Positions 24,813 to 63,375 of a stretch of 64,000 nt of DNA are shown here, in pieces (positions within the stretch are counted from its first letter, which is position 1; every line of letters begins with the position of its first letter). The position numbers were made by a program, and so were the translations under genes. The DNA is from Artemia franciscana (taxonomy: Eukaryota; Arthropoda; Branchiopoda; Anostraca; Artemiidae): the NCBI RefSeq assembly GCF_032884065.1, contig NC_088879.1:24352038-24416037 (forward strand). Reading direction: 5' to 3'. Under the pieces are notes generated by a model. The model saw only the letters and a program-made list of their open reading frames with translations. It made no database searches and was not told where the DNA came from.

Positions 24813-25081
24813 CTAATTTATTAAGCTGAAAGTAAGGAGCGACATTAAAACTTAAAACGAACAGAAATTAATCCGTATATAAAATGGGTTGTCTCCTCCG
24901 CAATCCCTCGCTCTTTACGCTAAAGCTTTTAATTGTTTTAAAAAGAAGAATTGTGGCAAAGAGTCAAACTTTAGCGTAAAGAGCGAGGGATTGCGGAGGA
25001 GACAACCCATTTTATATACGGAGTAATTTCTGTTCGTTTTAAGTTTTAATGTCGCTCCTTACTTTCAGCTAAAAAAATTAG
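24813..25081. repeat. Family E foldback, 113-bp arms
   Basis: Left arm 24813-24925, right arm 24969-25081, spacer 43 bases. Arms differ at only about four positions. The core AAAATGGGTTGTCTCCTCCG on the left is matched exactly by CGGAGGAGACAACCCATTTT on the right, although no other copy has this core. Confidence 0.93.
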
Positions 25082-25545
25082 TTTTTTTTTATTTAATTTC
25101 TGAACGTTTTTGAATTAATGCATGTTTGGTTTTGGCTCTCCCCACATAAATTATTAAAATAAAATTTGTATATTAATTCTTTTTTTGGATAAATGGTTTT
25201 CTCTTAGTTTTGATCAGACGATTTTGAGAAATAAGGGGTGGAGAAGGAGGCCTAGTTGCCCTCCAATTTTTCGGTTACTTAAAAAGGCAACTAGAAATTT
25301 TAATTTTTAACGAACGTTTTTATTAGTAAAAAATATACGTAACTTATAAATTAGCAACTTACGTAACAAACTTTCATAATCTTATATTTTTATTATGTAT
25401 ACAAGGAAATCTCGTTATCCTCGCTATCTATTAGGTTTGTATCCTCGTTAATACCTCGCTCTTTACACTAAATCTTAAGTTTTGTCCCAATTCTTTAAAA
25501 ATGACCCCTGAATCAGAAAGGCCGTAGAATAAATAGTTGAAATTA

Positions 25546-25623
25546 CTAAAAATACTTTAGCATAAAGAGCGAGGTATTTATCTCCTTCTAAATACCTCGC
25601 TCTTTATGCTAAAGTATTTTTAG
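25546..25623. repeat. Perfect 35-bp hairpin, 8-base loop
   Basis: Left arm 25546-25580 and right arm 25589-25623 are exact reverse complements; the loop is TCTCCTTC. In sister copies (39430, 40010) only the left arm is present and is followed by different sequence. Both arms carry the private variant TTAGCATAAAG, where sisters have TTAGCG. Confidence 0.97.
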
Positions 25624-26744
25624 AACCCCTCATGTGCGTAATAGTCTCTGTTCGTTTTAAGTTTCAATGCTACTCCTACCTTTCATTTGAAAAAACGTTT
25701 TCATGTTTATTTTTCATTGTTTTCTTTTAGTAATGCTAGAAAATCATGCGCCCTTTTCCTTGAATTTTTCTTCCCCCATGACAGATTCCTCCAAGGAAAG
25801 ATCCTCCAACATAGCCCCCTCCCCTCAGCCCCACCTGCCAAACAAAATAAAACCCCCCTGAAAACGTCTGTACACTTCCCAATAACAATTACTATATGTA
25901 AACACTGGTCAAAGTTTGTAACTTGCAGCCCCTCCCCCAGGGATTGTAGGGGAGTAAATCATCCCCAAATACATAGTTATTATGGTTTTCGACTATGCTG
26001 AACAAAATGGCTATCTCAAAATTTTGATCCGTTGACTTTGGGAAAAAATGAGCGTGGGAGGGGGCCTAGATGCCCTCCAATTTTTTGGTCACTTAAAAAG
26101 GGCACTAGAAATTTTCATTTCCGTTAGAATGAGCCCTCTTGTGACATTCTAGGACCACTTGGTCGATACGATCACCCCTGGGAAAAATAAATAAATAAAC
26201 ACGCACCCGTGATTTGTCTTCTGGCAAAAAATACAAAATTCCACATTTTTGTAGATAGGAGCTTGAAACTTCTACAGTAGGGTTCTCTGATACGCTGAAT
26301 CTGATGGTGTGATTTTCGTTAACAGTCTATGACTTTTAGGGGGTGTTTCCCCCTATTTTCTTAAATAAGGCAAATTTTCTCAGGCTCGTAACTTTTGATG
26401 GGTAAGACTAAACTTAATGAAACTTATATATTTAAAATCAGCATTAAAATTCAATTCTTTTGATGTAGCTATTGATATCAAAATTCAATTTTTTAGACTT
26501 TTGGCTACTATTGAGCCGGGTCGCTCCTTACTACAGTTCGTTTCCACGAACTGTTTGATGTTGAATCATATGGTTCTATGAGATTTGAAGCCCTACGATT
26601 TAGTTTTCTAATATGCTGAATTTAATGGTGTAGTTTACATCAAGATTAATGGACTTTTTTTGGGGTATTTCTCCCTTTTTCAAAAGTCGGGCGTATCTTC
26701 TCAGGGCCATAACATTTGATGGGTGGCATTGAACTTAATGATAT

Positions 26745-28435
26745 TGTCAAACAGTTCGTGGTAACGAACTGTAGTAAGGAGCGACCCGGCTCAATAGTAA
26801 CCGAAACTCTAAAAAATGGAATTTTAATGCCAATAGCTACATCAAAAGAATCGAATTTTAATACTAATTTTAAATATATAAGTTTCTTCAAGTTTAGTCT
26901 TACCCATCAAAAGTTATGAGCCTGAGAAAATGTGCCTTATTTTAGAAAATAGGGGTAAACACCCCCTAAAAGTTATAGAACCGTAACAAAAATCACACCA
27001 ATAGATTCAGAGTATCAGAAAACCCTATTGTTGAAGTTTCAAGCTTCTATCTGTAAAAATCTGGAAATTTGTATTTTTTGCCAGAAGGCAGATCACGGAT
27101 GCATGTTTATTTGTTTTTTTGTTTGTTTTTTGTTTTGTTTTTTTCCCCAGGGGTGGTCGTATTGACCCAGTGGTCCTAGAACCTTGCGAGAGGGCTCATT
27201 CTAACAGAAATTAAAAGTTCTATTGCCCTTTTTAAGTGACCAAAAAAATTGGAGGGCACCTAGGCCTCCTCCCAAGCTAATTATTTTCCCAAAGTCAACG
27301 GATCAAAATTCTGAGATAGCCATTTTATTCAGCGTCATCGAAAAACCTTATAACTATGTCTTTGGGGATGACTTACTCCCCCACAATCTCCGTGGGAGGA
27401 GCTACAAGTTACAAACTTTGACCAGTGCTTACATATACTAATGGTTACTGGGAAGTCTACAAACGTTTTCAGGGGGATTTTTTGGTTGGGGAGGGGTGAG
27501 GAAGAGGGGGATATGTTGGGGGAACTTTCCATCGAGGAATTTGTCATAGCGGAATAGAATTTCCATGAAGGGAGCGCAGGATTTTCTAGCATTATTAAAA
27601 AAAAAATGAAAAAATAGATATGAAAAAGTTTTTTCAACTGGAAGTAACGAGCACCATTAAAACTTAAAACGAACAGAAATTATTACGCATATGAGTGGCT
27701 CACCTCCTCCTAATGCCTCGCTCTTTACGCTAAAGTATTTTTAGTAATTTCAACTATTTATTCTACGGCTTTTGTGATTCAGAGGTCATTGTTAATGAAT
27801 TGGGACAAAATTTAAGCTTTAAAGAGCGAGCACCCCCTCATATATGTAATAAAAATGAGAATACGGAAGTTCGTTACGTAAGTTAATTTATAAGTTACGT
27901 ATATCTTTTACTAATAAAAACATTCGTAAAAAATTAAAAGTTCTAGTTGCCTTTTTAAATAACCAAAAAATCGGAGGGAAACTAGGCTTCCTCACCCGCT
28001 CCTTTTTTTCTCAAAATAATTCGATCAAAACTATGTGAAAGCCATTTAGCCAAAAAAAAAAATATGCAAATTTCGTTTTAATTATTCCTCTGCGGAGAGC
28101 CAAAATCAAAACATGCATTCATTCAAAAACGTTCAGAAATTAAATAAAAAAAAACAAGTTTTTTAACTGAAAGTAAGGAGCGACATTAAAACTTAAAACG
28201 AACAGAAATTACTTCGTATGCGAAAGGGGCTGCTTCCTCATCAACGCCCGCTCTTTATGCTAAAGTTTTTTACTGTTTTAAAAAGTAGAGCTGATAGAAA
28301 GAATCAAACTTTAGCGTAAAGAGCGGGACGTTGATGAGGAAGCAGCCCCTTTCATATACCGAATAATTTCTGTTCGTTTCAAGTTTTAATGTCGCTCCTT
28401 ACTTCAAGTTAAAAAAATTTGTTTTTATATTTAAT
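26745..28435 (+). mobile_element. Family E element (plus), near full length
   Basis: About 1.69 kb, opposite in orientation to the copy at 24799-26559, so the two short-palindrome ends face each other across 185 bases. Starts TCAAACAGTTCGTGGTAACG (26747), then AAGGAGCGACCCGGCTCAAT, and ends in the foldback at 28152-28432. The spacer 26560-26745 is itself a diverged minus-strand E fragment (GTAACATTTGATGGGTGG-like). Confidence 0.82.
28152..28432. repeat. Family E foldback with GGGGCTGCTTCCTCATCAAC core
   Basis: The left core GGGGCTGCTTCCTCATCAAC is answered by GTTGATGAGGAAGCAGCCCC on the right, exactly complementary. This arm pair is less perfect in the CGTATGCG/CATATACCG segment. Confidence 0.9.
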
Positions 28436-29560
28436 TTTACTTGGAATTCACGTAAAAAGCCTATTCTTGTAGACAAGTAAATTTAACTCATTTCAAAGTA
28501 AATTTTTGTTTGCTTATGTCTATATTAACTTTTTAAACTCAAAAGGACAATAAGCATCCGCCTTTCCCTTGCATAATTCCAATATTTGAATTGAATTTTA
28601 TACTGAACGTAGTCAATGATCATTGAAATTACTTTCAATGATCCCGTAGTCAAATTTAATTCTAAATTGAAGAAATTTCAAAATACTCTTGAAGTCCAAA
28701 AAAAGCTGATTAATATAACCTGTTTATGTTAAAATAACACTTTTTTTTTTACTGAAAAGTACATAAATATTAACAATTCCAATAATTGTCGGAATTCAAA
28801 GAGCAAGTCACAATTTCAACATAAAAATCGGATTTTTTTACTTGTTTAAAGTCTAGCAAAATATTTTGTTGGAAATCAGTTATTTTTACAGTGAAAAATG
28901 AATATAAACAAATTTCTGATGCATTTTTCGATCTTTTTTTATAAGCCCCCAAGCCCGAAAAAAATCCTGAATATGGCCCTGCATAGCTCTATTTTTCACG
29001 CAATTTGCTTCTCTCCCGCCCCTCGAAAAAAAATTTCCCATCCGATATAAATTCCTGCAATCATGCTTGTCTCTGTGTCATCTAGTTTTCGATTAATTTA
29101 ACTGGGAGTGGCACCTTGTCTAGCAAAACTGCCATTTACAATTTTCTATCAAATGAAATAAATTTCAAATAACCTTGAAAATACAGTTAATTAGCGTTGC
29201 ATTAATGGCATTGAGAAGACTGCTCCTGACATGCTGCCAGTGACGTGTGTCCCCGACAAAAAGAAGTTCCGGGGGTCAATAAAAGTTTGACTGATAAAAG
29301 AAAGAGTATCAAGGCGATAATGCTTCTTTTTTGTAAACATCCTCATAGAATAAATTAAAAACTTGACACTGGGATTATTGGTTTACCAGGAGGGGTCTGA
29401 TGACAAAATGTCAAATTGACAAGTTGATAGAGGAATGATGAAAATTGGTACTATCGTGAGGTAATGGAAAAAGCCTTGCAAAATTACTTTTTAGAAGTGC
29501 GGATATTTTTTACACCAAATGATTTTGATTACGTGATTAGTTTTAATAGCGTGATCAATG
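28436..29560. other. No recognised element; one small hairpin
   Basis: AT-rich sequence. A 10-bp hairpin ATCATTGAAA-TTAC-TTTCAATGAT lies at about 28618-28641. No coding signal. Confidence 0.5.
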
Positions 29561-29672
29561 GTTTAGCATCAGAACTCTTTTGTTGAAGAGGACCATGGAG
29601 ATTTAATAGTTATTGTGTGTTGCTATTGTAATATGTTCCCTTTGTAAATAAAATTATTATTATTATTTCAGG
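29560..29672 (+). mobile_element. Probable LINE 3' tail with (ATT)n
   Basis: TTTGTAAATAAAATTATTATTATTATTT (split here as AATAAA plus ATT repeats) ends a stretch that looks like a non-LTR 3' UTR. A polyadenylation-like AATAAA followed by a trinucleotide tail is typical of some LINE families. No coding part remains. Confidence 0.45.
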
Positions 29673-29839
29673 AGCACTTCAAAGTAATTCAAAGAATAAA
29701 AATAATTTGCATCTTTCCTGTTATACCTATGCCACTACTTACTCGTTGCTTCAATTTACGGGTACTAAGTTGAAACAAAAGAGTTCCGTATGGCAAGACG
29801 AAAGGGAAACATACATTCTGGTCTATATATATGCGAATT

Positions 29840-34281: not shown

Positions 34282-34757
34282 AATAATATGAAAAAAACTT
34301 CGTTTTCTTAAAGAGTTAAAGAGGCTGCGTCCCAAAGTCGAACCTTAAAACGTACAGGAATTAGAAGAGGCAGTTGGGGGGCTGCCGCCCCCCAAACCCC
34401 CAGCTTTTAAAGACTCTTTTGTACAGGTTTTTTTTTTGGGGGGGGGGGACTTCATTGTTACTAATTACTAGTTTCGGCGCAATGATTCTCCTGTCCTCTT
34501 GTGTTTAACATTTTTCGAAGTTATTCCATTATTCATTCATTTCAATTTTTTGTTAATTAAAAGAGGGCCTTTCCGAAGCCAAGTGCTGGGGGTTAGCAAA
34601 AAAACAAAAAACCTGTACAAAAGAGTCTTTAAAAGCTGGGGGTTTGGGGGGCGGCAGCCCCCCAACTGCCTCTTCTAATTCCTGTACGTTTTAAGGTTCG
34701 ACTTTGGGACGCAGCCTCTTTAACTCTTTAAGAAAACGAAGTTTTTTTCATATTATT
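34282..34757. mobile_element. Foldback with apparently perfect 147-bp arms
   Basis: Left arm 34282-34428 and right arm 34611-34757, spacer 182 bases. I compared the arms base by base and found no mismatch. The arms contain a smaller palindrome, GGGGGGCTGCCGCCCCCC-like, and the phrase TTAAAACGTACAGGAATTAG. The spacer includes a T/G homopolymer run (34424-34450). A related partial unit lies at 35160-35190 (CTTTTAAAGACTCTTTTGTA). Confidence 0.9.
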
Positions 34758-35430
34758 TCTGTACGTTTTTCTACAATCCATGGTGGATGTAATTTAATAA
34801 TTCCTGTACTCCTCGTACAGGAATTAGGAGAGGAACTTGGGTGGCTGCCGCCCCCCCCCCGCTTTTAAATCATTGTATAAAATAGAAAAAAAATAGATAG
34901 AATGACCGAAATGTTTCTTTTGCTCATAAGAAGCTAATATTCTGTTATCTCTCAAATGATAAGCTGTCCAGGTGTTATCAAAAATTTTTCTGGAATGGAG
35001 CTGGATTTTTATGATGCTTGCAGTCATTCTCGCCGTGCCGAGCTGATTATTTTGATGTACTTGAATGTTGATATTCGTAACTTTTAAGAATTTCAAAAAT
35101 TAACATGGGACTATTAGACTATTAGGACTATAAGAAGACTATTAGGAGAGGCAAACCCCCCGCTTTTAAAGACTCTTTTGTACAGGTTTAATTTTTTTTC
35201 ATATTAATTCTGTACGTTTTTCTACAATCCATGGTGGATGTAATTTAATAGTTCCTGTACTCCTCGTACAGGAATTAGGAGAGGAACCCACCCCCGCTTT
35301 TAAATCATTGTATAAAATAGAAAAAAAAATAGATAGAATGACCGAAATGTTTCTTTTGCTCATAAGAAGCTAATATTCTGTTATCTCTCAAATGATAAGC
35401 TGTCCAGGTGTTATCAAAATTTTTTTGATG
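34758..35430 (+). repeat. Direct duplication with ATTCCTGTAC hairpin, two copies
   Basis: 34740-35005 and 35195-35425 share TCTACAATCCATGGTGGATG, the hairpin ATTCCTGTAC-TCCTC-GTACAGGAAT, AAATAGATAGAATGACCGAA and GATAAGCTGTCCAGGTGTTA. The copies differ by small indels, and the interval between them holds unrelated sequence. Confidence 0.8.
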
Positions 35431-35443
35431 TTGTGAAAAAAAA

Positions 35444-35516
35444 TCGCCCGTAAGGGACTTGAACCCTTGACCAGAGGATTAAAAGTCTCACGTTCTACCA
35501 ACTGAGCTAATAACTT
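35444..35516 (-). tRNA. tRNA-Lys(TTT)-like pseudogene
   Basis: Minus strand: TAGCTCAGTTGGTAGAAC (A-box and D arm), anticodon loop CTTTTAA giving TTT, and a perfect T arm AAGGG-TTCAAGT-CCCTT with B-box. It is followed by the 3' acceptor strand ACGGGCG, an A and then a run of T (pol III terminator). The 5' acceptor strand (AAGTTAT) does not pair with ACGGGCG, and only about three of five anticodon-stem pairs form. I read it as a tRNA-derived pseudogene or SINE head whose 5' end has been replaced. The internal promoter looks usable. Confidence 0.6.
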
Positions 35517-36060: not shown

Positions 36061-36236
36061 ATTTTCCCCATGAAGAAAAAGTTGGAGGGGGATGAAATTT
36101 TGCAGGTTTCTTAGTTGGAGCTCGGGCTACGAAATGCATCCCTCCCCATCCGTCTGCGACCACTGGAACCGAAGATCGCTTAACATTGTCGTGTGTCGCC
36201 TCTTTATAGAGGCACGAGTGTGCCTCCTTGATTAAA

Positions 36237-37975
36237 TAAAAAAAGCAAGGTTTTTTAACTGAAAGTAAGGGGCAGCATAAAAACTGAAAACGAACAAAAA
36301 TTATTCCGTATATGAAAGGACCTGTCCCCACCTCAACGCCTCGCTCTTTACGCTAAAGTTTGACTCTTTGTCCCAGCTGTACTTTTTAAGACAATAAAAC
36401 TTTTGTGTGAAGAGTGAGGCGTTGAGGGGGGACAGCTCCTTTCATATACGAAATAATCTCTGTTCGTTTTAAGATTTGATGTCACTCCTTACTTTCAGTT
36501 ATTTTTTTTTTTTTAATTTAATTTCTGAACGTTTTTCAGCTAATGTAGCTTTGAATTTGGTTTGCCGTACCTGAAAAATTTTAACGAAATTTGTATATTA
36601 ATTTTGGCAGATTTATTTCGGATCTATTTTTTAAAAACAAGCTTCCTATTCTAATTAAATGCCCCCCTTGTTTCAATTTTAGTGAACAGTCAAACTTTAG
36701 CGCAAAGAGAAAGGTATTGAGGAGGCAAAACTTCATATGTGGCATAATTTCTGTTCGTTTTTCAAATGATGGCAGTAAATCTGGCTCACCCACTGTAAAT
36801 TATACCCTTCCTCCTCACGGAAAACAACTCCGTGGAAATTTCATCCAACGTAAAGTGCAACTCCCCATCCGTCACATTCCCTCCAAACAGTTCTATCCTC
36901 GCTGAGAATTTCCCTCCCCTTAAAATTTCTTGTGGACGATTCACCCGGAAAAATTTTCCTTAGCATCCTTTCATTTGAAAAAGACTTTAATCTCTAATCG
37001 ATTTCACGATCATTCTAGAAATACCCCCTTCCATGGACATGATTTCTAAGAAAACAAAACACGGGGAACAGCGCCCCTGGATAATTCTCCCGAAACATCT
37101 CCACATAAAACATTTGGCAAAGAGAATGTAAGCCAATTAAAAAGAATTTCGTTTAGTAATTCTGTCGAAACCCCCAAGTTTAACATTTCCCATGAAATAT
37201 TTGCTGCCTAGAAATTTTCCCCTCCCAAGGAAAATTTCACCAATAGATAACCACCCCAAGCACACACACCACAAGAAAAAAATGGATATATACTTATAAC
37301 AAATACTATATGTAAAGAATGGACGAAGTTCAAAATTTGTAGCCCTTTCCTGGGGACTGTGGAGGGTCATCTTACACCTAAAGACATAGTTATTTGATTT
37401 TTGATGATGCTGAACAAAATGGCAAACTCAATTTTTTTTATCAGGTGACTTTTGAAAAAAAATGAGCGCGGGAATAGGGCTAGTTGCCCTCCAATTTTTT
37501 GGTCACTATAAGAGGGCACTAGAAATTTGAATTTCCGTTCTAATGAGCTCCTAGTAAAATTCTAGGACCACTGGGTCCATACGATCACCCCTTGGAAAAA
37601 ACAAAACAAAAAAAACACGCATCCGTGACCTTTCTTCTGAGAAAAAGATACAAAATTCCACATTTTTACATATAGGAGCTTGAAACATCTACAGTAGGGT
37701 TGTCTCATACGCTGAATCTGATGGTGTGATTTTTATTAAGATCTTATGAATTGTAGGGATGTTCCCTCCTTTTTTCGAAAATAAGGCAAATATTATGAGG
37801 TTCATAACTTTTGATGACTAATACTAAAGCTGATGAAACTTGTATATTAAAAATTCGCTAAGAATCTGATTCTTTTGATGTATCTATTGGTATCGAAATT
37901 TTGTTTTTTAGAGTTTCAATTACTATTGAGCCGGGCCGTCCCTTACTTGCAGTTTGATATCCACGAAAGCGTGAC
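36237..37975 (-). mobile_element. Divergent family E element (minus)
   Basis: Foldback at 36246-36510 (core GACCTGTCCCCACCTCAACG, answered by TTGAGGGGGGACAGCTCC). The body from about 37380 has ACAAAATGGCAAACTC, GAGCGCGGGAATAGGGCTAG and CACGCATCCGTGACC, then TATTGAGCCGGGCCGTCCC. It ends near 37960 in a decayed short palindrome. 36780-37250 carries the GGAAAATTTCC-rich module also seen at 59.1 and 61.3 kb. Confidence 0.65.
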
Positions 37976-38690: not shown

Positions 38691-38973
38691 CACTATCCCC
38701 CCCATATGGTAAATTGAGCAGCTAAAAAGAGAGTTTGACCAATAAAAACAATGAAGCAAAGAATGCATTTTGGAACATTCTATACTCCAAAATACAGGTA
38801 GAATGTATGGGGTAGAATATTCTGTAGTATGTATTTTCACATTTTGTTGATTGTAAATCCTTTTGTATGTTATTTTTTTGGGGGGAGGGGTAGTTATCAT
38901 AGCATGTTAAGATAATAAATAAGGAAAATAATTTGGAATTACTGGCAACTGTTAAAGAGTTGACCTATGATAG

Positions 38974-40996
38974 AAATTAAACAAAAAAACTAGCTTTTTA
39001 AATGAAAGTAAGGAGCGACATTAAAACTTAAAACGAACAGAAATTACTCCGTAGAAATTACTCCGCACATAAATAATTAAAACGAAATTTGCAAATTATT
39101 TTTTTGGCTAAATGGCTTTTTCATAGTTTTAATCGGAAGATTTTGAGAAAAAAGGAGCGAGGGAGGAGGCCTAGCTGCCCTCCAATCTTTTGATTACTTA
39201 AAAAGGCACTAACTTTAAATTTTTTACGAACGTTTTCATAAGTAAAAAATATACATAACTTACGAATTAACTTACATAGCGAACTTCTGTATTCGTATGT
39301 TTTTATTCCGTATATGAGGGGCTCGCCCCTCGTCGATACCTCGCACTTTACACTAAAGCTTAAATTTGTCCCAATTCCTTAAGAATGGCCCCTGAATCAA
39401 AAAGGCCGTAGAATAAGTAGTTGTAATTACTAAAAATACTTTAGCGCAAAGAGCGAGGCATTACGAGGAGGTAAACCCCTCATATGCGTTATAATGTCTG
39501 TTCGTTTTCAATTTTAATGCTGCTCGTCACTTTCAGTAAAAAAAACTTTTCATATTTATTTTTTCATTGTTTTTTAAATAATGCCAAAAAATCCTGCGCC
39601 CCCTCCATTGAAAGTATCTTCCCCCATGAGAAGCTACTCTATGGAAAGATCCTCCCACGTAACCCCTCCCCTCAACTCTCCCTCCCCCCAACCAAATGGC
39701 TAAATGGCTTTCTCATAGTTTTGATCGAATGAATTTGAGAAAAAAAGCAGTGGGTGAGGAAGCCTAGATGCCCTCCGATTTTTTGGTTACTTAAAAAGGC
39801 AACTAGAACTTTTAATTTTTTACGAATATTTTTATTAGTAAAAGATATACGTAACTTATAAATTAGCTTACGTAACGAACTTCCGTATTCTTATTTTTTA
39901 TTACATATATGAGGGGGTGCTCGCTCTTTACAATAAAGCTTAAATTTTGTCCCAATTCATTAACAATGACCCCTGAATCCCAAAAGCCGTAGAATAAATG
40001 GTTGAAATTATTAAAAATACTTTAGCGTAAAGAGTGAGGTATTAGGAGGAGGTGAGCCCCTCATATGCGTAATAATTTCTGTTCGTTTTAAGTTTTAATG
40101 CTGCTCCTTACTTTCAGTTGAAAAAACTTTTTCATATCTATTTTTTCATTGTTTTTTTTTAATAATGCTAGAAAATCCTGCGCTCCCTTCATGGAAATTC
40201 TCTTCCCCCATGACTAATTCCTCGATGGAAAGTTCCCCCAACATACTCCCCTCTTCTCAACCCCCCTCCCAACCAAAAAAAAATCCCCCTGAAACATCTC
40301 TACAGTTCCCAGTAACCATTACTATATGTAAACACAGGTCAAAGTTTGTAACTTGCAGTCCCTCCCAAGGGGACTGCGGGGGAGTAAGTTGTCCCAAAAG
40401 ACATAGTTATTAGGTTTTTCAACTATGGTGAATAAAATGGCTATCTCAGAAATTTTATCCGGTGACTGTGACTTTGGGAAAAATGAGCGTGGGAGGGGGC
40501 CTCAGTGCCCTCCAATTTGTTCTGTCACTTAAAAAGGGCACTAGAACTTTTAATTTCCGTTAGAATGGACCCTTTCGCGACATTCTAGTACTGCTGAGTC
40601 GATACGATCACCCCTGGTAAAAAAACAACAAATAAACACGCATCCGTGATTTGTCTTCTGGCAAAAAATGTGAAATTCCACATTTTTGTAAATAGGGGCT
40701 TGAAACTTCTACAATAGGGTTCTCTTATACGCTGAATCTAATGGTGTGCTTTTTGTTAAGATCGTATGACTTTTAGGGGGGTGTTTCCCCTATTTTCTAA
40801 AATAAGGCAAATTTTCTCAGGCCCGTAACTTTTGATGGATATAACTGATCTTGATGAAATTTATATATTAAAAATCAGCATTAAAATGCGATTCTTTTGA
40901 TGTAGCTATTGGCATTAAAATTCCATTTTTTAGAGTTTCGGTTACTATTGAGCCGGGTCGCTCCTTACTACAGTTCGTTACCACGAACTGTTTGAT
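38974..40996 (-). mobile_element. Family E element (minus) with internal duplication
   Basis: About 2.0 kb. The left foldback is truncated: one module (AAAGTAAGGAGCGACATTAA) survives, with a 15-base stutter of AAATTACTCCG. A block of about 590 bases is present twice (39115-39700 and 39705-40270), each with CTCCAATC/CTCCGATT, AGCTTAAATTTTGTCCC-like and GGTGAGCCCCTCATATGCG-like phrases. Ends in GTTCGTTACCACGAACTGTTTGAT at 40974-40996. Confidence 0.75.
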
Positions 40997-41363
40997 AACC
41001 AGAGATAACAGGTTGGAACTAACATTTTTGTAAATAGGGGCTTGAAACTTCAACAGTAGGGTTTTCTGATACTCTGAATCTATTGGTGTGATTTTCGTTA
41101 CGGATCTATGACTTTTAGGGGCTGTTTACCCCTATTTTCTAAAATAAGGCACATTTTCTCAGGCTCGTAACTTTTGATGGGTAACACTAAACTTGATGAA
41201 ACTTATATATCTAAAATTAGTATTAAAATTCGATTCTTTTGATGTAGCTATTGGCATTAAAATTCCATTTTTTAGAGTTTCGGTTACTATTGAGCCGGGT
41301 CGCTCCTTACTACAGTTCGTTACCACGAATTGTTTGATGACCAGAGATAACAGGTTGGAACTA
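40680..41363 (-). repeat. 342-bp tandem duplication across an element end
   Basis: 40680-41021 and 41022-41363 are direct repeats (about 95 percent by eye). Each contains the last ~315 bases of family E plus 25 bases of flank, CCAGAGATAACAGGTTGGAA. The flank is duplicated together with the element, so this is a later tandem duplication, not a second insertion. Confidence 0.88.
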
Positions 41364-43072: not shown

Positions 43073-43096
43073 CGCTTTGTTTTATACAAACGAAAT

Positions 43097-48787: not shown

Positions 48788-50496
48788 ATCAAACAGTTCG
48801 TGGTAACGAACTGTTGTAAGGAGCGACCCGGCTCAATAGTAACCAAAACTCTAAAAAAATGGAATTTTGATACCAATACCTACATCAAAGAATCGTATTT
48901 TAATGCTTATTTTAAATATATAAGTTTCATCAAGTTTAGTCTTACCCATCAAAAGTTACGAGCCTGAGAAAATTTGTGTTATTTTAGAAAATAGGGGGAA
49001 ACGCCCCCTAGAAGTTATAGAATCTTGACGAAAATCACACCATCAGATTCAACGTATCAGAGAACCCTACTGTAGAAGTTTCAAGCTCCTATCTACAAAA
49101 ATGTGGAATTTTGTATTTTTAGCCAGAAGGCAGATCACGGATGCGTGTTTATTTGTTGTTTTGTTTTGTTTTTTTGGTTTTTTTCCCAGGGGTGATCGTA
49201 TCGACCCAGTTGCCCTAGAATGTTGCAAGAGGGCTCATTCTAACGGAAATGAAAAGTTCTAGTGCCCTTTTTAAGTGACCAAAAAAATTGGAGGGCACCT
49301 AGGCCCCCTCCCACGCTAATTATTTTACCAAAGTCAACGGATCAAAATTCTGAGATAGCCATTTTATTCAGCGTAGTCGAAAAACCTTATAACTATGTCT
49401 TTGGGGACGACTTACTCCCCCACAGTCCCCGTGGGAGGGGCAACAAGTCACAAACTTTGACCAGTGCTTACATATAGTAATGGTTATTGGGAAGTGTACA
49501 GGCGTTTTCAGGAGGATTTTTTTGGTTGGGGGAGGGGTTGAAAAGAGGGGGATATGCTGGGGGAACTTTCCATCGATAATTTGTCATGGGGGAAGAAAAT
49601 CTCCACGAAGGGAGCGCAGGATTTACTAGCATTATTAAAAAAAAAACAATGAAAAATAAATATGAAAAAGTTCTTTCAGTTGGAAGTAAGGAGCAGCATT
49701 AAAACTTAAAACAAACAGAAATTATTACCCATTTGAGGGGCTCACCTTCTCCTAATACCTCGCTCTTTACGCTAAAGTATTTTTAGTAATTTCAACTATT
49801 TATTCTACGGCTTTTGTGATTCTGGGGTCATTCTTAATGAGTTGGGACAAAATTTAAGCTTTAGTGTAAAGAGCGAGGATCTGACAAGGGGGAGAACCCC
49901 CCCATATATGTAATAAAAATATGAGAATACAAAAGTTCTTTACGTAAGCTAATTTATAAGTTACGTAAATCTTTTACTAATAAAAATATTCGTAAAAAAT
50001 TAAAAATTCTAGTTGCCTTTTTAATTAACCAAAAAATCGGAGGGCAACTAGGCTTCCTCCCCCGCTCTTTTTTCTCAAAATCATTCGATCAAAATTATGA
50101 GAAAGCCATTTAGCCAAAAAAAAACACAAATTTTGCTTTAATTATTCCTCTGCGGAGAGCCAAAATCAAAACATGCATTGATTCAAAAACGTTTAGAAAT
50201 TAAATAAAAAAACAAGTTTTTTAACTGAAAGTAAGGACCGACATTAAAACTTAAGACGACCAGAAATTACTTCGTATATGAAAGAGGCTGCTTCCTCATC
50301 AACGCCCCGCTCTTCACGCTAAATTTTTTTACTGTTTTAAAAAGAAGAATTGAGAGAAAGAGTCAAACTTTAGCGTACAGAGCGGGGCGTTGATGAGGAA
50401 GCAGCCTCTTTCATATACGAAGTAATTTCTGGTCGTTTTAAGTTTTAATGTCGCTCCTTACTTTCAGTTAAAAAAACTTGTTTTTTTTATTTAATC
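48788..50496 (+). mobile_element. Family E element (plus), best full-length copy
   Basis: About 1.71 kb. Start ATCAAACAGTTCGTGGTAAC, then AAGGAGCGACCCGGCTCAAT, CACGGATGCGTGTTTATTTG, GGGGTGATCGTATCGACCCA, CTATGTCTTTGGGGACGACT, GTTTTCAGGAGGATTTTTTT, TCGCTCTTTACGCTAAAGTA, and the foldback at 50213-50481. Ends TTTTTTTTATTTAAT. Flanks (GCATGGTTTT on the left, CTCTTAAAGG on the right) show no target-site duplication. Confidence 0.85.
50213..50481. repeat. Family E foldback with private GACCAG/CTGGTC variant
   Basis: The left arm reads GACGACCAGAAATTAC and the right arm GTAATTTCTGGTCG; all other copies have GAACAG/CTGTTC. The left core AAAGAGGCTGCTTCC also matches right GGAAGCAGCCTCTTT, where sisters have GGGGCTG. 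Confidence 0.93.
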
Positions 50497-50654: not shown

Positions 50655-51570
50655 ATCGATATTTCAATAGCACTGAGCTAGTGCTCAGATTCTAGCAATC
50701 ACAATGTCTACTTTACGAATGATCTGAGTGCCAGTGGCGACGTTAGATGAGCAACCTATGTGAATGCACTGGGCCCCGCGCCATCAAGGGCTCCGATATT
50801 TCAATAGCACTAAGCTAGTGCTCAGATTCTTGCAATCACAATGTGTTAGGCATGTGCAACCTATGTGAATGCACTGGGCCCCGCACCACCAAGGGCTCCA
50901 ATATTTCAATAGCACTGAGCTAGTGCTCAGATTCTAGCAATCACAATGTCTACTTTACGAATGATCTGAGTGGCAGTGGCGACGTTAGGCATGTGCAACC
51001 TATGTGTATGCACTGGGCCCCGCGCCACCAAGGGCTCCGATATTTCAATAGCACTGAGCTAGTGCTCAGATTCTAGCAATCACAATGTCTACTTTACGAA
51101 TGATCTGAGTGGCAGTGGCGACGTTAGGCATGTGCAACCTATGTGAATGCACTGGGCCCCGCGCCACCAAGGGCTCCGATATTTCAATAGCACTGAGCTA
51201 ATGCTCAAATTCTAGCAATCACAATGTCTACTTTACGAATGATCTGAGTGGCAGTGGCGACGTTAGGCATGTGCAACCTATGTGTATGCACTGGGCTCCG
51301 CGCCACCAAGGGTTCCGATATTTCAATAGCACTGAGCTAGTGCTCAGATTCTAGCAATCACAATGTCTACTTTACGAATGATCTGAGTGGCAGTGGCAAT
51401 GCACTGGGCCCCGTGCCACCAAGGGCTCCGGTATTTAAATAGCACAGAGCTAATGCTAGGATTCTAGCAATCACAATGTCTACTTTACGAATGATCTGAG
51501 TGGCAAAGGCGACGTTAGGCATGTGCAACCTATGTGTATGCACTGGGCCCCGCGCCACCAAGGGCTCCGC
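50655..51570 (+). repeat. 139-bp satellite, seven units
   Basis: Unit starts (GATATTTCAATAGCACTGAG) at about 50658, 50795, 50900, 51039, 51179, 51317 and 51430, with spacings 137, 105, 139, 140, 138 and 113; the short ones carry internal deletions. Each unit contains the inverted repeat CTGAGC-TAGT-GCTCAG, a TCAGAT...ATCTGA pair, and a GC-rich box GCACTGGGCCCCGCGCCACC. The array is far more GC-rich than its surroundings. Open frames through it are incidental. Confidence 0.95.
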
Positions 51571-53629: not shown

Positions 53630-55080
53630 ATCAAACAATCCGTGGTAACAAACTGTAGTAAGGAGCGACCCGGCTCAATAGTAACCGAAACTCTAAAAAC
53701 GGAATTTTTATAACAATAGTTACATCAAAAGAATTACATTTTAATGCTGATTTTAAATATATAAGTTTCATTAAGTTTAGACTCACCCATCAAAAGTTCC
53801 GAGCCTGAGAAAATTTGTCTTATTTTAGAAAATAAGGGGAAACATCCCTAAAAAGCCAAATAATCTTAACGAAAATCACACCATCAGATTCAGCGTATCA
53901 GAGAACCCTACAGTAGAAGTTTCAAGCTCCTACTAACAAAGATGTAGAATTTTGCATTTTTGCCACAAGACAGATCACGGATGCGTGTTTAATTTGTTTG
54001 TTTATTTTTTGTTTTTTTTTTCCAGGGGTGATCGTATCGACCCAGTGGTCCTAGAATGTCGTGAGAGGTCTTATTCTAACGAAAATTAAAACTTCCAGTG
54101 CCCTTTTTAAGTAACCAAAAATTGGAGGGCACCTAGGCCCCCTCCCATGCTTATTTTTTTCTCAAGGCCACCGGATCAAAATTCTGAGATAGCCATTTTA
54201 TTCAACATAGTCGAAAAGCCTAATAACTATGTCTTTGGGGACGACTTACTCTCCAAAGTCCCCGTGGGAGGGACTGTAAGTTACAAACTTCGACTAGTGT
54301 TTACATATAATAATGGTTATTGGGAAGTGCACAGGCGCTTTCAGGGGGATTCTTTTGGCTGGGGAGGGGTTGAGGGGAAGGGGTTATGCGGGGGGAAATT
54401 TCCATGGAGGAATTTTTCATGGGAAAAGAAAATTTCCATGAAGGAGGCGCAAGATTTTTTAGCATTTTTTTTTAAAGAACAATGAAAAAATAAATATGAA
54501 AAAGTTTTTTAAACTGGAAGTAAGGAACAGCATTAAAACTTAAAACGAACAAAAATCATTACGCATATGAGGGGTTCACCTCCTCCTAATGCCTCGCTGT
54601 TTACGCCACAGTGATTTTATTAATTTCAACTATTTATTCTACGGCCTTTGTGATTTAGGGGTCATTCTTAGGGAATTGGGATAAAATTTAAGCTTTTGTG
54701 CAGAGAGCGAGGTATTGATGAGGGGAGAGGAGCCCCCTCATATACGTGATAAAAACATACGGATATAGAAGCTCGTTACGTAAGTTAACTCGTAAAGTAC
54801 GTAAGTTACGTATATTTTTACTAATAAAAACGTTTGTAAAAAATTAAAAGTTTTAGTTGCCTTTTAAATAACCAAAAAAACTGGAGGGTAACTAGGCCTA
54901 CTCCCTCGCTTCTTTTTTCTCAAAATCGTCCGATCAAAATTATAATAAAAATTTATATATTATAATTATAATATATAAAATTATATATTTCATATACGGA
55001 GTAATTTCTGTTCGTTTTAAGTTTTAATATCGCTCCTTACTTTTAGTTAAAAAAAAACTTGTTTTTCTTTATTTCATCAA
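53630..55080 (+). mobile_element. Family E element (plus) with broken foldback
   Basis: Starts ATCAAACAATCCGTGGTAAC. Body intact to about 54935. The left foldback arm is replaced by a short AT-rich palindromic run (TTATATATTATAATTATAAT, 54950-54985); the right arm survives (CATATACGGAGTAATTTCTG). Ends near 55079. Confidence 0.8.
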
Positions 55081-55189
55081 GATCGCTTGAATTCTTAGGT
55101 TTTTTTAAAAGCACCCAAATTTTCTTTTACTCGTAGCAATTGATATGCTAACATTAACTTTAATAATTTTATATATTTGGAATAAGAGT

Positions 55190-57003: not shown

Positions 57004-58610
57004 AATCAAACCGTTCGTGGTAACGAACTGTAGTAAGGAGCGACCCGGATGAATAGTAACCAAAACTCTAAAAAATAAAATGTTGATATCAATAGCTAAA
57101 TCAAAGAAATCGCATTTTGATGCTGATTTTAAATATATAAGTTTCATCAAGTTTAGTCTTACCCATCAAAAGTTGTGAGCCTGAGAAAATTTGCCTTGTT
57201 TTAGAAAATAGGGGGAAACACCCCCTAAAAGTCATAAAATGATCTGCCAGAAGGCAGATCACGGATTCGTCTTTATTTGTTTGTTTGTTTTTTTCTCAGG
57301 GGTGATCGTATCGACCTAGTGGTCCTAGAATGCTGTGAGAGGGCTGATTCTAACGGAAATGAAAAGTTCTAGTGCCCTTTTTAAGTGACCAAAAAAGTTT
57401 GAGGGCACCTAGGTTCCCACGCTAATTATTTTTCCAAAGTCACCAGATCAAAATTCTGAGATAGCCATTTTATTCAGCGTAGTCAAAAAACCTTATAACT
57501 ATGTCTTTGGGGACGACTTACTCCCCCACAGTCCCCGTGGGAGGGGCTAAAAGTTACAAACTTTGACCAGTGATTACATATAGTAATGGTTATTGGGAAG
57601 TCTACAGACGTTTTCAGGGGGATTTTTGGTTGGGGGAGGGGTTGAGAAGAGGCGGGTATGTTGGGGGAACTTTCGTTGGATGTAATTGTTATGGGGGAAG
57701 AAAATTTCCATGAAGGGAGCGCAGGATTTTGAGCATTATTAAAAAAAATAATGAAAAAAAATAAAAATGAAAAAGTTTTTTCAACTGAAAGTAAGGAGCA
57801 GCATTAAAACTTAAAACGAACAGAAATTATAACGCATATAAGGGGCTCACCTCCTCCTAATACCTCGCTCATTACGCTAAAGTATTTTTAGTAATTTCAA
57901 CTATTTATTCTACGGCTTTTGTGATTCAGGGGTCATTCTTAAGGAATTGGGACAAAATTTAAGCTTTAATGTAAAGAGTGAGGTACTGACAAGGGGTGAG
58001 CCCCCTCATATTCGTAATAAAACATGAGAATACAAAGTTCGTTACGTAAGCTAATTTGTAAGTTACGTATATCTTCTACTAATAAAAGCATTCGTAAAAA
58101 ATTAAAAGTTCTAGTTGCCTTTTTAAGTAACCAAAAAATCGGAGGGCAACTAGGCTTTCTCCCCCGCTCCTTTTTTCTCAAAATCATTCGATCAAAACTA
58201 CTAGAAAGCCATTTAGCAACAAAAAAAAAATTCAAATTTCGTTTTAATTATTCCTCTGCGGAGAGCCAAAATCAAAACATGCATTGATTCAAAAACATTC
58301 AGAAATTAAATAAAAAAAAACAAGTTTTTTTTTAACCGAAAGTAAGGAGCGACATTAAAACTTAAAACGAACAGAAATTACTTCATATATGAAAGTGGCT
58401 GCTTCCCCATCAACGCCCCGCTCTTTACGCTAAAGTTTTTTGCTGTTTTAAAAAGTAGAGTTGAGAGAAAGAGTCAAACTTTAGCTTAAAAAGCGGGGCG
58501 TTGATGAGGAAGCAGCCCCTTTCATATATGAAGTAATTTCTGTTCGTCTAAGTTTTAATGTCGCTTCTTACTTTCAGTTAAAAAAAAACTTGTTTTTTTT
58601 ATATTTAATA
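57004..58610 (+). mobile_element. Family E element (plus) with hairpin at a deletion junction
   Basis: Starts ATCAAACCGTTCGTGGTAAC. The ~140-base block between the phrase CACCCCCTAAAAGTCATA and GGCAGATCACGGAT, present in sister copies, is missing here. The junction is a perfect 8-bp hairpin, GATCTGCC-AGAA-GGCAGATC, at 57241-57260. Ends in the foldback at 58321-58592. Confidence 0.82.
58321..58592. repeat. Family E foldback
   Basis: Left core GGCTGCTTCCCCATCAACGC against right GCGTTGATGAGGAAGCAGCC; one mismatch in the core and a T/C difference just before it (GTGGCTG versus CAGCCCC). Confidence 0.9.
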
Positions 58611-58928
58611 TAGGGCAAAGATTAATCGAGACATGAGTTGCCATTCCTAAATCAGCTATAACTGGTTTTTTTTTCTCATTGGCCAGTTGCGAGTAGCTAA
58701 TTTAGCTGATCCCGGTCACCCGCACAGATTTATATGTGAAAAAAAGTGGCTCAGAGGGTGATAAGAGCTCCGTAGCTCATGCAGTGGCCCCAAATTATGC
58801 AAATAGGCCAAGTAAAACACAGGTTGCGTAGATGCAATTTATTAAAAGTGTGGCAATTGCAAGGGCTAAAGTGAGACCCTTGGGTTCATGCCCTTTCCAA
58901 AACCGTAGTCCTTTTCTCCACACGTATG

Positions 58929-61616
58929 ATAATGTTTTGCCTGTTTCTATTCATGATCGAATGCTTAGGAAATATTCATTAATTATTAATTGTTGATCTG
59001 TTTTTAAGTTTTTTTTCTATCGCTTTTGCCATTTCTGTTATTATCGTTATTATTGTTCAAATTTATGCTATTTAATTAGCAAGTGCTTTCTGAAGGTGTT
59101 AGACCCCCCCTGAAAATTTCTCCATCTTAGGCAAAAATTTCCTTCGGAAAACTCCCTCCCTGCTGAAAATTTTTCCTTGACAATTTCCGCGCAACATTCT
59201 CTTCATATGTTAAATTGTACATCCAAAGAGAAAGAAAGAAAGATAAAAAGAATTCTGTAAATAACTCTCACGGAAATTCTTCACAGAAAAATTTCTCCTC
59301 GTTGAACATTCTCCCCGTGGAAATACCCCTCCCACCCTCGCAGAAACCCCCCCCCCCCCCCGCGAAAAATGTCCGTTCGTTTCGCCAAAGCAATAGTACG
59401 ACTTTCCTAATTCAAACGACTTCAGTCATTTACCTGTAAATGGTCGTGGATTTCGTCAACAAAGGCACTTAAGAATGTATGAGCTCTTCATTTCAGATCT
59501 AAGATTAACATTGCTACCTAGAAGTCCGAAATCAAAATAGGGTCAGTTCAAATATTACAAAAAGAAGTCGGTTTTCACCAGGGTATCTATTTAAGAATTT
59601 TTTATTTTCTATTTAAGAACAGTGCAACATCACGGATGCAGCGACAGCTGCAGCGGAAGACAGACCAAATCAAAAGTTTCAAAACACGCCTTTGCAGAAA
59701 ATTGCTATTTACAGCAGATTCAAGAATGGTATTTCTTCTTAGGAAAGTCACAGCCCCCGCCTTGAACAAGAAGCAAAACCACTTTTGCATGGCTAGCACT
59801 GATATGTCTCCTTTTTCTTCTTTTATTCACCCAGGGGGTGATCATATCGAACCTATAGTCTTAGAATGTTGGGACAGGGTATCATTTGAAAGAAAATCGC
59901 CATATCTAATGCCCTTTTTAAGTAAAAGCAAGAGATATACTAGACCGAAATGGTGTTTACTGTAATTTTGTACCACAAAACATCAATTTGTACCCAAAGA
60001 AAGTCAAAATGCCGGAGAATACAAAACATGACTTACTTGACTTAACGCTCTTGCTCAGCAGGGTCACCAGCGCAGAGGGAACTGGTTGACAACGCCGTCA
60101 GTCTTCTCCAAGTAGCCCTGTCCAGGGCTAAGGATGGGGCCTCATTTGGGTTGATGTTGCGATTGAGCAGGCGTTGGTTTATTACATCAACCCATCTAGT
60201 GCGTGGCCTTCCTCGAGGGCGTTTCCAGCCATTTTCCGAGGGATTGAAGTCCGAGATGATCCTTGCGGGGGTACTTAGTTCTTTTGCTAAAAGAAACTTA
60301 GAACCAGGCTGGTTCAGTGTCAGGACATTCCAGGTTGCAACATTAATGCCACCTTGGTCAGTGATGTTCAAAGGGGTACGTCCTTGGGCAGGCCTGGGTC
60401 CATTTGGGAAAGTAGGTGGGGCATCCGAGGCTGTATTTCCATTTCCATTCGTAGCAATGAATTTCAGGAGGAGAGCGGCTAACCCAACCATCCCTAGGTG
60501 CATTTAGTTCTCCGGTGGCTATTCGGATATCCAGAGGTACGTGAAGTCAGCTCTGCATGCGCCAAGAATGGATTAGAGAAGACTTCAGACGAGCACCAAT
60601 ATACAAAATATAGGAGAAACAATCGATTTTTTACGGTCTAAAATCCTAGACAAAATTGTTTCAACCCCCCCCCCTCTAGTCTTGAAAAACAGATCTAAAA
60701 TATGACATGAAAGCCGAAAGCAACTCCATTTGTATGACTAACCCATCAGTTGGTAATAACGTGAATGCTCCTGTAATGACTAAGCTTTTTCAGTAAATAT
60801 TAAAAAAACAATTTCCAAAAAGAAGTTTTCTAAAGAATAGTAAAGGCAACATTAAACTTATGATCAGAAGAAATAGAACCTACAACAACTCAAAATCAAA
60901 ATGACCAGAAATTACTATTAAAGAATAAATGAAACCCAAAACGAATAGAAATTAAATATACATTAATAACTGAAAAACTTATTCAAAACCTGAAAAGCGA
61001 TTTCCTTTCAAATGAGCCCTATCCCAAGATTCTGAGGGTACAGGTTTAATATGATCACCCAACTCCTTTATGTGCACTGTTAGTCTCAGACTTGAAATGA
61101 AGAGTTCATACATTCTTAAACGCCTCTCTTGACGAAAACAACAGCCATTTGCAGGGAATGTACTGAAGTCGTTTGAATTAGGAGGGGAGTTTTCTGTGTG
61201 TGCTTGGGGGGATATTTCCACGGGAAAATGTTCAACGAGGAAAAAAAATCTGGAAAGAATTTCCCTGGTTCCATTGAAAGAATTCTTTTTATTTGTCTTT
61301 CTTTCTCTTTGGATGTACAATTTTACGTTTGAAGATAATGTTGCGGGGAAATTGTCAAGGGAAAATTTTCAGCGAGGAGAGAATTTATCGAGGAAAATTT
61401 CCACCTGGGAGGGCAATTTTCATCGGGGGAGGGGGTGTCTAGTGCCCTCAGAAAGCACTTGCGAATTAAATAGTGTAAATTTGAATAATATTAACGATAA
61501 TATAAATGGCGAAAGCGATAGAAATAATAAAAACTAAAAAACAGATTATCATTTAGTAGTATATCAATATTTCCTAAGCACTCGATGATGAGTTGAAACA
61601 GGCAAAACATTATTGT
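58929..61616. mobile_element. 2.7 kb inverted-repeat element with ~600 bp arms
   Basis: Left arm 58929-59520 (continuing at 59828-59910) and right arm 60985-61616 are inverted copies. Left GATAATGTTTTGCCTGTTTC pairs with right GAAACAGGCAAAACATTAT. Left GCAAGTGCTTTCTGA pairs with right TCAGAAAGCACTTGC. Left AAATTGTACATCCAAAGAGA pairs with right TCTCTTTGGATGTACAATTT. Left AAGAATGTATGAGCTCTTCA pairs with right TGAAGAGTTCATACATTCTT. A ~300 base insertion splits the left arm (59521-59827), and a LINE derivative occupies the centre. The inner arm ends are related to family E (GGGGGTGATCATATCGAACC). Confidence 0.78.
60042..60503 (-). CDS. Internally deleted LINE ORF: endonuclease start fused to C-terminus
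   Basis: Uninterrupted 153-codon frame. Residues about 50-70 read GGINVATWNVLTLNQPGSKF, the N-terminal strand of the APE-type endonuclease of non-LTR elements (NVATWNVRTL type). From about residue 90, NGWKRPRGRPRTRWVDVI and NQRLLNRNINPNEAPSLALD plus RATWRRLTALSTS match the extreme C-terminus of the same kind of ORF. The rest of the endonuclease and the whole reverse transcriptase (roughly 800 residues) are missing. The frame stays open across the joint, and the start codon is followed by a proline-rich leader. It sits antisense at the centre of the inverted-repeat element. It cannot be autonomous; it is either a fresh deletion or a non-autonomous family that keeps both LINE ends. Confidence 0.75.
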   Translation of the reverse strand: MHLGMVGLAALLLKFIATNGNGNTASDAPPTFPNGPRPAQGRTPLNITDQGGINVATWNVLTLNQPGSKFLLAKELSTPARIISDFNPSENGWKRPRGRPRTRWVDVINQRLLNRNINPNEAPSLALDRATWRRLTALSTSSLCAGDPAEQER

Positions 61617-61994
61617 ATAAGTGGAGCTAAGGAGGGTAACTAGCCCCCCCCCCCCAGCTTTGCTCATTTTAGAATTTATTTATTCATTTATGTTAGTAGG
61701 CTACCTGTTGTATTTTTTGCTATGATTGTTTATTTAATTTCTATACGTTTTGGTTTTCATTTATTCTTTAATAGCAATTTCTGGTTATTTCAAGTTTGAG
61801 TAATAGTAGGTTTCTATTTCTTCTTATAATATGTCCTTTGCTTTTCTTTTGAGAATTTTTTATTCAGAAAGTTTTTTTTAAATTAATTTCTGTTTATTTT
61901 TGATAGCCAAAGTTTCAAGTTTTTCAAATTCCCTATTTCAAAAATTTTTATTTCAAAGAAAAAATTAACGGTTTTAGCAAGAATTGATGAAATT

Positions 61995-62450
61995 AAACTG
62001 AATATATGTTAAAAAAGGCGTGGGGGCTAGTTGCCCTCCGGCCTCTTTTGACTCTTAATCACCGACTCGTTTGAATCTTAATCATTTGATTCTGAATTAA
62101 CTTCCAATTTGCAATCAAATGAGCCTTCTCTGAAGTTTATACGAGCACCCCTTCTATAAGAACCTTAAATTTTTTCGGGGTGTAACTTACAACGCCCGTC
62201 CCTTGGCCCTGAGTGGTTGTGTCGACACCGGAGCTATTGTTAAATGATGTTTAAACTATTTTTAACAATAAGAATATCTCAAAATTTGTATCGGATGTAT
62301 TAGGGGAAAAGAGCTTGAGGGGGCTAGTTGCCTTCTGGTTATTTTTTACTCTTAAAAAAGGGACTAGAACTTCAGACTTTCAATCGAATGAGTCCTCTTT
62401 GAAATATATATACGACTACCCCTTCCATATGAAGTGTCACTGGGAAAAAA
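61995..62450 (+). mobile_element. Composite B fragment
   Basis: GGGGGCTAGTTGCCCTCCGG, GAGCACCCCTTCTATAAGAA, GTAACTTACAACGCC and GGTTGTGTCGACACC match 15740-15960 in order. A second partial unit follows with GGGGGCTAGTTGCCTTC (62320). Confidence 0.65.
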
Positions 62451-62470
62451 AAATAATAATAAAACATTAG

Positions 62471-62502
62471 AGCCGATGGACCAGATGGTCCATCGGCTTT
62501 TT
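62471..62502 (+). terminator. Perfect 12-bp hairpin followed by T5
   Basis: AGCCGATGGACC, loop AGAT, GGTCCATCGGCT, then further Ts. By shape it is a bacterial-type intrinsic terminator, but it sits in eukaryotic repeat DNA between a composite B fragment and family E. A function as terminator is therefore not implied. Confidence 0.4.
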
Positions 62503-62558
62503 GTCACCAGATGGATGAAATGTATAAGTAACAAAAAACGTCTTGCCACAGCAAAATG

Positions 62559-63375
62559 TTATTCAACTGAAAGTAAGGAGCAGCATTAAAACTTAAAACG
62601 AACAGAAATTGTTACGCATATCAGCGATTCACCTCCTCTAATACCCACTCTTTAGGCTAAAGTATTTTTAGATATTTTAACCTCTATTCTACGGCCTTTG
62701 TGATTCGGTGGTCATTCTTAAGGAACTGGGACAAAATATATGCTTTAGTGTAAAGAGCGAGGCATTGACGAAGGGGTGAACCCCCTCAAATACGTAATAA
62801 GAACTTACGAATATAGAAGTTCGTTACGTAAGTTAATTTGTAAGTTACGTATATTTTTTACTAATTAAAATGTTTGTAAAAATTAAAAGTTCTAGTTGCC
62901 TTTTTAAGTAACCAAAAAATTGAAGGGCAGCGATGCCCCCGCTCCTTTTTGTCTCAAAATCATCCAAACAAAATTATGAGTCATTTAGCCAAAAAAAAAT
63001 TAACTTGCAAATTGTTTTAATTATTCATTTGCAGAGAGCCAGAATTAAAACATGCATTAATTCAAAAACGTTCAGAAATTGATAAAAAAAACAAGTGTTT
63101 TTAACTGAGATTAAGGAGCGACATTGAACTTAAAACGAACAGAAATTACTCCGTATACGAAAGGGGTTGTGCCCTCCTCAGTGCCCTGCTCTTTGTGCTA
63201 AATTTTTTTTTTACTATTTAAAAAGTAAAGTTGAGAGAAAGAGTCAGTCTTTAGCGTAAAGAGCAGGGCACCGAGGAGGGAACAGTCCCTTTCATATACG
63301 GAGTAATTTCTGTTCGTTTTAAGTGTTAGTGTCGCTCCTTAGTGTCAGTTAAAAAAACTTGTTTTGTTTATAATT
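62559..63375 (+). mobile_element. Family E element, 3' half
   Basis: Starts inside the body at the module AACTGAAAGTAAGGAGCAGC and runs to the foldback at 63092-63362. The short-palindrome end is missing. Confidence 0.78.
63092..63362. repeat. Family E foldback with private GTGCCCTGCTC core
   Basis: Left CTCAGTGCCCTGCTCTTT is matched by right AAAGAGCAGGGCACCGAG; sisters have CAACGCCCCGCTC. Right-end variants GTGTTAGTGTCGC are not all mirrored. Confidence 0.88.

Follow-up and report, generated by a model that had tools for sequence, protein, structure and literature searches.

What keeps the two arms of a long hairpin alike when the hairpins of a repeat family differ from copy to copy? This question is raised by a 64,000-nucleotide stretch of the Artemia franciscana genome (contig NC_088879.1, positions 24,352,038 to 24,416,037; here called the window), in which foldbacks of one dispersed repeat recur. 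An earlier note, made from the sequence alone, had proposed that in each copy a change in one arm is answered by the complementary change in the other, through hairpin-templated conversion or through selection for the hairpin. The foldbacks form the 3'-terminal hairpin, about 300 bp long, of a ~1.7-kb repeat, with both arms at the same end of its body. We consider it likely that the arms were matched by episodic arm-to-arm copying in source copies, which then spread, their inserted descendants decaying mostly independently in the two arms.

Concordance of the hairpin arms in the window

The repeat has a constant 5' end (ATCAAACAGTTCGTGG...) and a constant 3' end (...TTTATTTAAT) and is a mobile, probably non-autonomous element. 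It is apparently non-coding, since the window holds just two open reading frames of at least 150 amino acids (23392-23850 and 60042-60503) and both fall outside the mapped copies. The terminal hairpin consists of ~120-bp arms around a loop of 41 to 46 nt, and seven near-complete examples lie in the window, with arms of 75 to 134 nt and 85 to 97% identity. Six are the foldbacks noticed before, at 24813, 28152, 44221, 50213, 58321, and 63092; the seventh lies at 36230-36526. Copy A (24798-26559, minus strand) has its hairpin at 24798-25101, where a distal arm (24825-24925) and a body-side arm (24969-25069) enclose the loop (24926-24968). On the plus strand are copy B (26747-28438; arms 28165-28265 and 28309-28410, loop 28266-28308), copy C (43096-44510; arms 44233-44334 and 44377-44478, loop 44335-44376), copy D (48788-50496; arms 50223-50323 and 50368-50469, loop 50324-50367), copy F (57005-58610; arms 58334-58435 and 58479-58579, loop 58436-58478), and copy G (62553-63377), which is without its 5' part (arms 63103-63202 and 63249-63350, loop 63203-63248). 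The seventh hairpin belongs to the oldest copy, H (36230-37967, minus strand; arms 36257-36358 and 36400-36500, loop 36359-36399). The arm tests were made on these seven hairpins; copies E and I, whose hairpins are incomplete, were omitted.

The arms are indeed more alike within than between copies. Over 102 arm columns, the left-right distance within copies ranged from 0.010 to 0.149 (mean, 0.075), compared with 0.154 to 0.155 between copies, and among the 5,040 possible left-right pairings the lowest sum, 59, was reached by the true pairing alone (mean, 107.9). Paired changes unique to one window copy numbered 14, against 0.58 expected by coincidence, and these two results together rule out a chance pairing of arms. 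An ancestry in which left arms descend from left arms and right arms from right arms, the outcome that would have spoken against concerted change, is ruled out by the arm tree, in which a clade of all left arms was rejected (log-likelihood difference [dlnL], 78.2). Left and right arms stood together in six of the seven copies, although strong support for this was obtained for A and C only. Three older hairpins, compared apart, gave 0.242 within versus 0.306 between copies, and the seven window hairpins taken together with seven fetched by chance from the genome gave 0.081 versus 0.137, with none of 20,000 shuffles as low.

The complementary change was not found "in each copy", as had been claimed. 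Copy B has discordant arms at 10 sites and no private paired change, and arms of D and F resemble its left arm more closely than its right arm does; in the arm tree its two arms did not stand together, yet their togetherness was not rejected (P = 0.133). Copy F has one private pair. The motifs quoted earlier as private pairs, GACCAG/CTGGTC in copy D, ACGTGTATG/CATACACGT in copy C, GTGCCCTGCTC in copy G, and the core at 24813 in copy A, each occur once per strand in the window, in the copy named (the first motif was searched in a longer form).

How far these pairs reflect events in the inserted copies themselves was approached through the left-right differences that independent arms would gather over each body branch. 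Copy H was omitted from this comparison, its body being alignable only piecewise and poorly (divergence, 0.33 to 0.56). Observed and expected differences were 1 versus 12.3 for A, 10 versus 9.5 for B, 4 versus 15.5 for C, 4 versus 8.0 for D, 7 versus 10.9 for F, and 12 versus 19.4 for G. The shortfalls in A and C speak for arm-to-arm repair that is ongoing inside every inserted copy, the version put forward in the earlier note, whereas copy B stands at its full expected difference. We dropped repair after insertion as the source of the A and C shortfalls because genome copies show that much of both branches is shared subfamily history.

Matched consensus stems and single-arm variants across the genome

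These genome copies come from the Artemia franciscana assembly (1.27 Gb, 6,468 contigs) and were selected for their likeness to window copies A, C, and D. From lists of 941, 3,938, and 3,676 candidates, 40 each were scored; the two longer lists may overlap and may include false members. The A-type set comprises the 27 complete hairpins of the first 30 loci (L010, L011, and L026 are incomplete), with loci L031 to L040 added for loops and, where long enough, for singleton rates. The D-type set comprises 35 of the 40 scored places (L041 to L075) and the C-type set 28 of 40. Genome-wide, the pairs that had seemed private, at 24813, 44221, and 50213, turn out to mark subfamilies or sub-subfamilies. 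The A core, the AGAGGC of D, and both ACGTGTATG and CCCTTCTC of C characterize their subfamilies, with some single copies lacking one letter or another, and GACCAG/CTGGTC is common to 8 of the 35 D-type copies, each time in both arms.

The consensus stems of the subfamilies carry no arm mismatch at all, over 121 positions in A, the whole aligned stem in D, and 102 columns in C. Between A and D, 12 of 100 consensus arm positions differ, and every one of these differences is present in both arms. All 12 lie 17 to 52 positions from the loop (in copy A, within the arm core at 24881-25013, minus strand, and likewise in the arm cores of other copies), while the outer arm and the stem base are identical. 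Recent variants behave otherwise. Singletons confined to one arm numbered 42 in A, 38 in D, and 60 in C (140 in total), compared with 1, 3, and 2 variants unique to one copy and present in both arms (6 in total). In a looser count, 6 paired stood against 92 single recent variants, to be set against the 12 to 0 of the sources (Fisher P = 5e-12). Recent variants being mostly confined to one arm and the consensus stems being matched, the matching of arms arose mainly in the source lineages. Of the hairpin-templated conversion proposed before, arm-to-arm copying is therefore supported, but mainly as a process of source lineages and not as ongoing repair of each inserted copy.

Further features of the genome copies bear on such ongoing repair. 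Left-right differences among A-type copies had a mean of 2.41 and a variance of 2.32, as in a Poisson process, and perfectly matched copies were not in excess (3 copies with no difference versus 2.4 expected); for D-type copies the mean was 2.29 and the variance 2.89 (2 copies with none versus 3.6 expected). In 28 A copies the singleton rate of the distal arm (0.0113) equalled that of the body (0.0117), the body-side arm, which served as the query, showing 0.0076; in 15 D copies the rates were 0.0151 for the body, 0.0129 for the left arm, and 0.0034 for the right arm. Several paired variants are common to more than one copy (k44, k38, and k25 in A; k64, k65, k97, and k69 in D; columns 27, 49, and 65 in C). 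Of these, the sub-subfamily pairs k64 and k65 were present in both arms in 8 of 8 and 6 of 7 copies, respectively, and some multi-copy variants also occur in one arm alone in other copies.

Several observations pull the other way. A small excess of likeness within copies remains in all three subfamilies (2.41 within versus 3.03 between per 100 in A, 2.29 versus 3.21 in D, and 0.070 versus 0.082 in C, with none of 20,000 shuffles as low in each), for which the multi-copy paired variants, such as k44, k64, and k65, account at least in part. The four unique paired changes of A and D exceed the 0.36 expected by coincidence (0.18 in each subfamily), a slight excess that could stem from some copying in inserted copies or from sub-subfamilies missed by the sampling. 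The single-arm load of left and right arms is opposite in the two subfamilies, with 19 versus 47 changes in A and 63 versus 18 in D. The asymmetry in A fits the query used; that in D, together with the low rate of the D right arm, may be a search bias. The genome copies, chosen by similarity to window copies, are also not a random sample. Weighing the two sides, we regard repair continuing in every inserted copy as very unlikely. In the D-type copies L041 to L075, the 63 single-arm changes are those of the body-side arm and the 18 those of the distal arm.

The history that we favor, of sources matched by episodic copying, might run as follows. In source copies one arm would from time to time be copied onto the other, by polymerase template switching or by gene conversion between the arms, fixing paired changes for each subfamily and possibly inverting the loop as a by-product. 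The subfamilies would then spread, their copies inheriting the near-perfect hairpin of the source, and in the inserted copies the two arms would mutate mostly independently. We infer that the copying was one or the other of these two processes and that it took place in germline source copies. The GC content of the arm core is 0.50 to 0.60, compared with 0.35 for the window, yet 5 to 10% of 36-nt stretches of the body also reach 0.55. A GC-rich core would fit GC-biased conversion, but given these bodies we draw no conclusion from it.

Loop orientation, inherited mismatches, and internal hairpins

A physical exchange is indicated by the loops. The loop of copy A is inverted relative to those of the six other window copies, with a mean score of -1 as written and of 43.8 when inverted (the best of 2,000 shuffles reached 10.7). 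The inversion is found at 36 of 37 A-type loci, the loop of L027 having flipped back, and also in an older A relative (L023:220-602). At L032:2178-2538, a hairpin with an F-type core, the loop has flipped independently. The common orientation holds for every loop of the D type (35) and of the C type (28). The overall tally is 46 normal and 39 inverted loops, with window copies A and D counted twice, and at least three inversions are required.

Could the arms instead be reset each time the element moves? On this account the 3' hairpin would refold in a single-stranded or self-primed intermediate of transposition, in which the arms are copied anew from each other, some moves also flipping the loop. 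Matching in the sources with little in the resident copies would follow, as would loop flips in young copies such as L027. Inherited mismatches argue against it. Position k31 of A is discordant (T in the left arm, C in the right) in 8 of 27 copies. Among 23 A copies with long bodies, 8 are older (k31 discordant or k44 ancestral) and 15 form the majority; the two groups differ at 19 body sites, 12 of which split the older group 7 to 1; the exception is taken to be L030, which is k31 discordant yet carries the majority k44 letter on its left arm. In the majority copies both k31 and k44 are matched in the two arms. Since the discordance is shared along with the older body sites and is matched in the majority, the mismatch was passed down over several moves and disappeared later, at the same time as a new change was introduced. 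Likewise, a letter present at k0 in the left arm only is common to 9 D copies. An obligatory reset of the arms at each move is ruled out by these shared mismatches.

Internal hairpins of the same element served as a control. They lie at 49681-49916 in copy D (with a truncated right arm and a loop of 81 nt), 54512-54752 in copy E, 57783-58020 in copy F, and 62565-62800 in copy G, all on the plus strand, and at 39303-39537 in copy I, on the minus strand. Compared over 57 alignable columns, with loops of 80 to 84 nt, the arms of these five were no closer within copies (0.301) than between them (0.300), and 67 of 120 pairings gave a sum as low. Arms of the same side were closer to each other (0.275 left to left, 0.217 right to right), and in the tree every left arm fell on one side of a branch with a support of only 52. 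As the internal hairpins do not evolve in concert, the concert is confined to the terminal hairpin. This confinement would suit recopying at transposition, although the two kinds of hairpin differ in their dimensions too, the terminal arms being longer and the terminal loop shorter. Considering also that the element has no known transposase or intermediate, we think recopying at each move unlikely, with a small chance of being correct. Were it correct, the divergence between arms would serve as an insertion clock and the orientation of the loop as a heritable marker.

Selection for a paired hairpin, the other possibility raised before, would explain the concordance without any copying if only copies with matched arms could serve as sources, compensatory changes restoring the pairing. 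The perfect consensus stems in three subfamilies are in line with this, as is the sameness of the outer arm and stem base in the A and D sources, with the 12 differences confined to positions 17 to 52 of 100. The discordant transitions show no preference for wobble pairs, however (17 versus 19), a source with a mismatch still gave rise to at least eight copies, and the inversion of loops demands an exchange that selection on pairing does not supply. We hold this explanation to be exceedingly improbable, and selection for an RNA hairpin finds no support here. Episodic copying in source lineages, followed by spread and decay, remains our preferred reading.

Related systems, element ends, and neighboring sequences

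Copying from arm to arm is an already known kind of process. Where template switching occurs between inverted repeats, it leaves two marks, homogenized arms and an inverted spacer (PMC8604942), and both are present in this hairpin family, whose arms are more alike within a repeat than between related repeats. The template-switched cases described in PMC8604942 and PMC8794818 involve short repeats in yeast genes and RNA stems; here, the arms are ~120 bp long and belong to a dispersed mobile element, and the process would concern mainly its source lineages. Conversion that maintains the likeness of arms, accompanied by rare inversion of the central part, is likewise described for the Y palindrome P6 (PMC3723533) and for long inverted repeats of C. 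elegans (PMC1803023), but these are single loci on a kilobase scale and not a dispersed repeat family.

Two easily merged things are separated by our data, namely, the matching that belongs to source lineages and the independent decay of inserted copies. If the 3,938 and 3,676 candidates are mostly real, they form a large natural record of arm matching in long hairpins. Should this history hold genome-wide, insertions could be dated from the divergence between the arms, much as a retrotransposon is dated from its two ends, and exchange events would be recorded in the orientation of the loop.

Among transposons, Galileo is the nearest parallel (PMC3573991). Galileo and other foldback elements share with the present repeat long inverted repeats and subfamilies with repeats of their own; within a copy the two repeats are 98 to 100% identical, and exchange has been proposed (PMC3573991, PMC4168063). 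Galileo is a coding element of the P superfamily with a repeat at either end, whereas here the repeat is non-coding and has both arms together at one end. Our element thus has the long inverted repeats of this class but not their placement at both element ends. A target-site duplication, usual for foldback and Galileo-type transposons, was not seen by eye at the seven window copies.

The absence of such a duplication, a TC start, a 3' hairpin, and a small 5' hairpin are likenesses to Helitron and Helitron2 elements (PMC5148889); the present repeat differs in having no CTRR end and a far longer hairpin. The element begins with TCAA(A/G)C in all 38 ends listed. Canonical Helitrons insert between A and T; here TC is preceded by A at 25 of the 38 ends, by T at 8, and by G at 5, and a T follows ATTTAA in most copies. 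The element ends in ATTTAAT, and the stem reaches this end, in place of the CTRR and the short hairpin 10 to 12 nt upstream that mark canonical Helitrons. Helitron2 elements have a hairpin at each terminus and asymmetric terminal inverted repeats. In the present repeat a 5' hairpin (CAGTTCG/CGAACTG) accompanies the 3' hairpin, and TAAGGAGCGAC near the 5' end recurs inverted in the 3' arm, an observation made without statistics. The genome contains at least 150 matches to the Helitron Rep domain above the family cutoff, 150 having been scored out of 7,435 candidates; an internal stop interrupts two of those listed. Comparison of the element with 5 loci out of the at least 150 matches, three of which are just 3.5 kb in length, revealed no shared sequence at an E value of 0.01, and kinship with these Helitron loci was set aside. 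The Helitron marks of the element are mixed, and we assign it to no class. In the window, 20037-24031 contains stretches 76 to 99% alike to the surroundings of four Helitron loci (L076, L077, L079, and L080), interspersed with arrays of (TA)n and of A-rich sequence. In 62 3' flanks of the element, from loci L001 to L075, A/G-rich letters are preferred 7 to 10 nt downstream of its end, one of these positions being A in 51 flanks, and here too no target-site duplication was seen.

Our literature search found no paper joining four or more of the terms transposable element, loop inversion, hairpin, inverted-repeat arms, and template switching, and a search on Artemia repeats, with Repbase outside its scope, gave no mention of Artemia in the 10 papers listed out of 231 matches. 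Scans with exact patterns of viral contig and genome contig collections gave no match. ARAGORN detected no tRNA in the window; the single tRNA hit from Rfam, at 35451-35510, does not lie in a mapped copy.

The two copies with incomplete hairpins are E (53630-55078, plus strand) and I (38972-40998, minus strand). Each retains a single arm of the terminal hairpin, and of that arm no more than the outer portion; in I, where the hairpin has collapsed, a short stretch is repeated at the junction. In two of nine copies, then, little of this hairpin is left, as expected if the hairpin is unstable. A further long hairpin occupies 34282-34757, with 156-nt arms that are 99% alike, a 164-nt loop, and a GC-rich core resembling the arm of this foldback family (family E of the earlier note), and a related stretch that forms no hairpin follows at 35152-35425. 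Immediately downstream of copy D, at 50845-51397, lies a tandem array of about four copies of a 139-bp unit with 97% matches.

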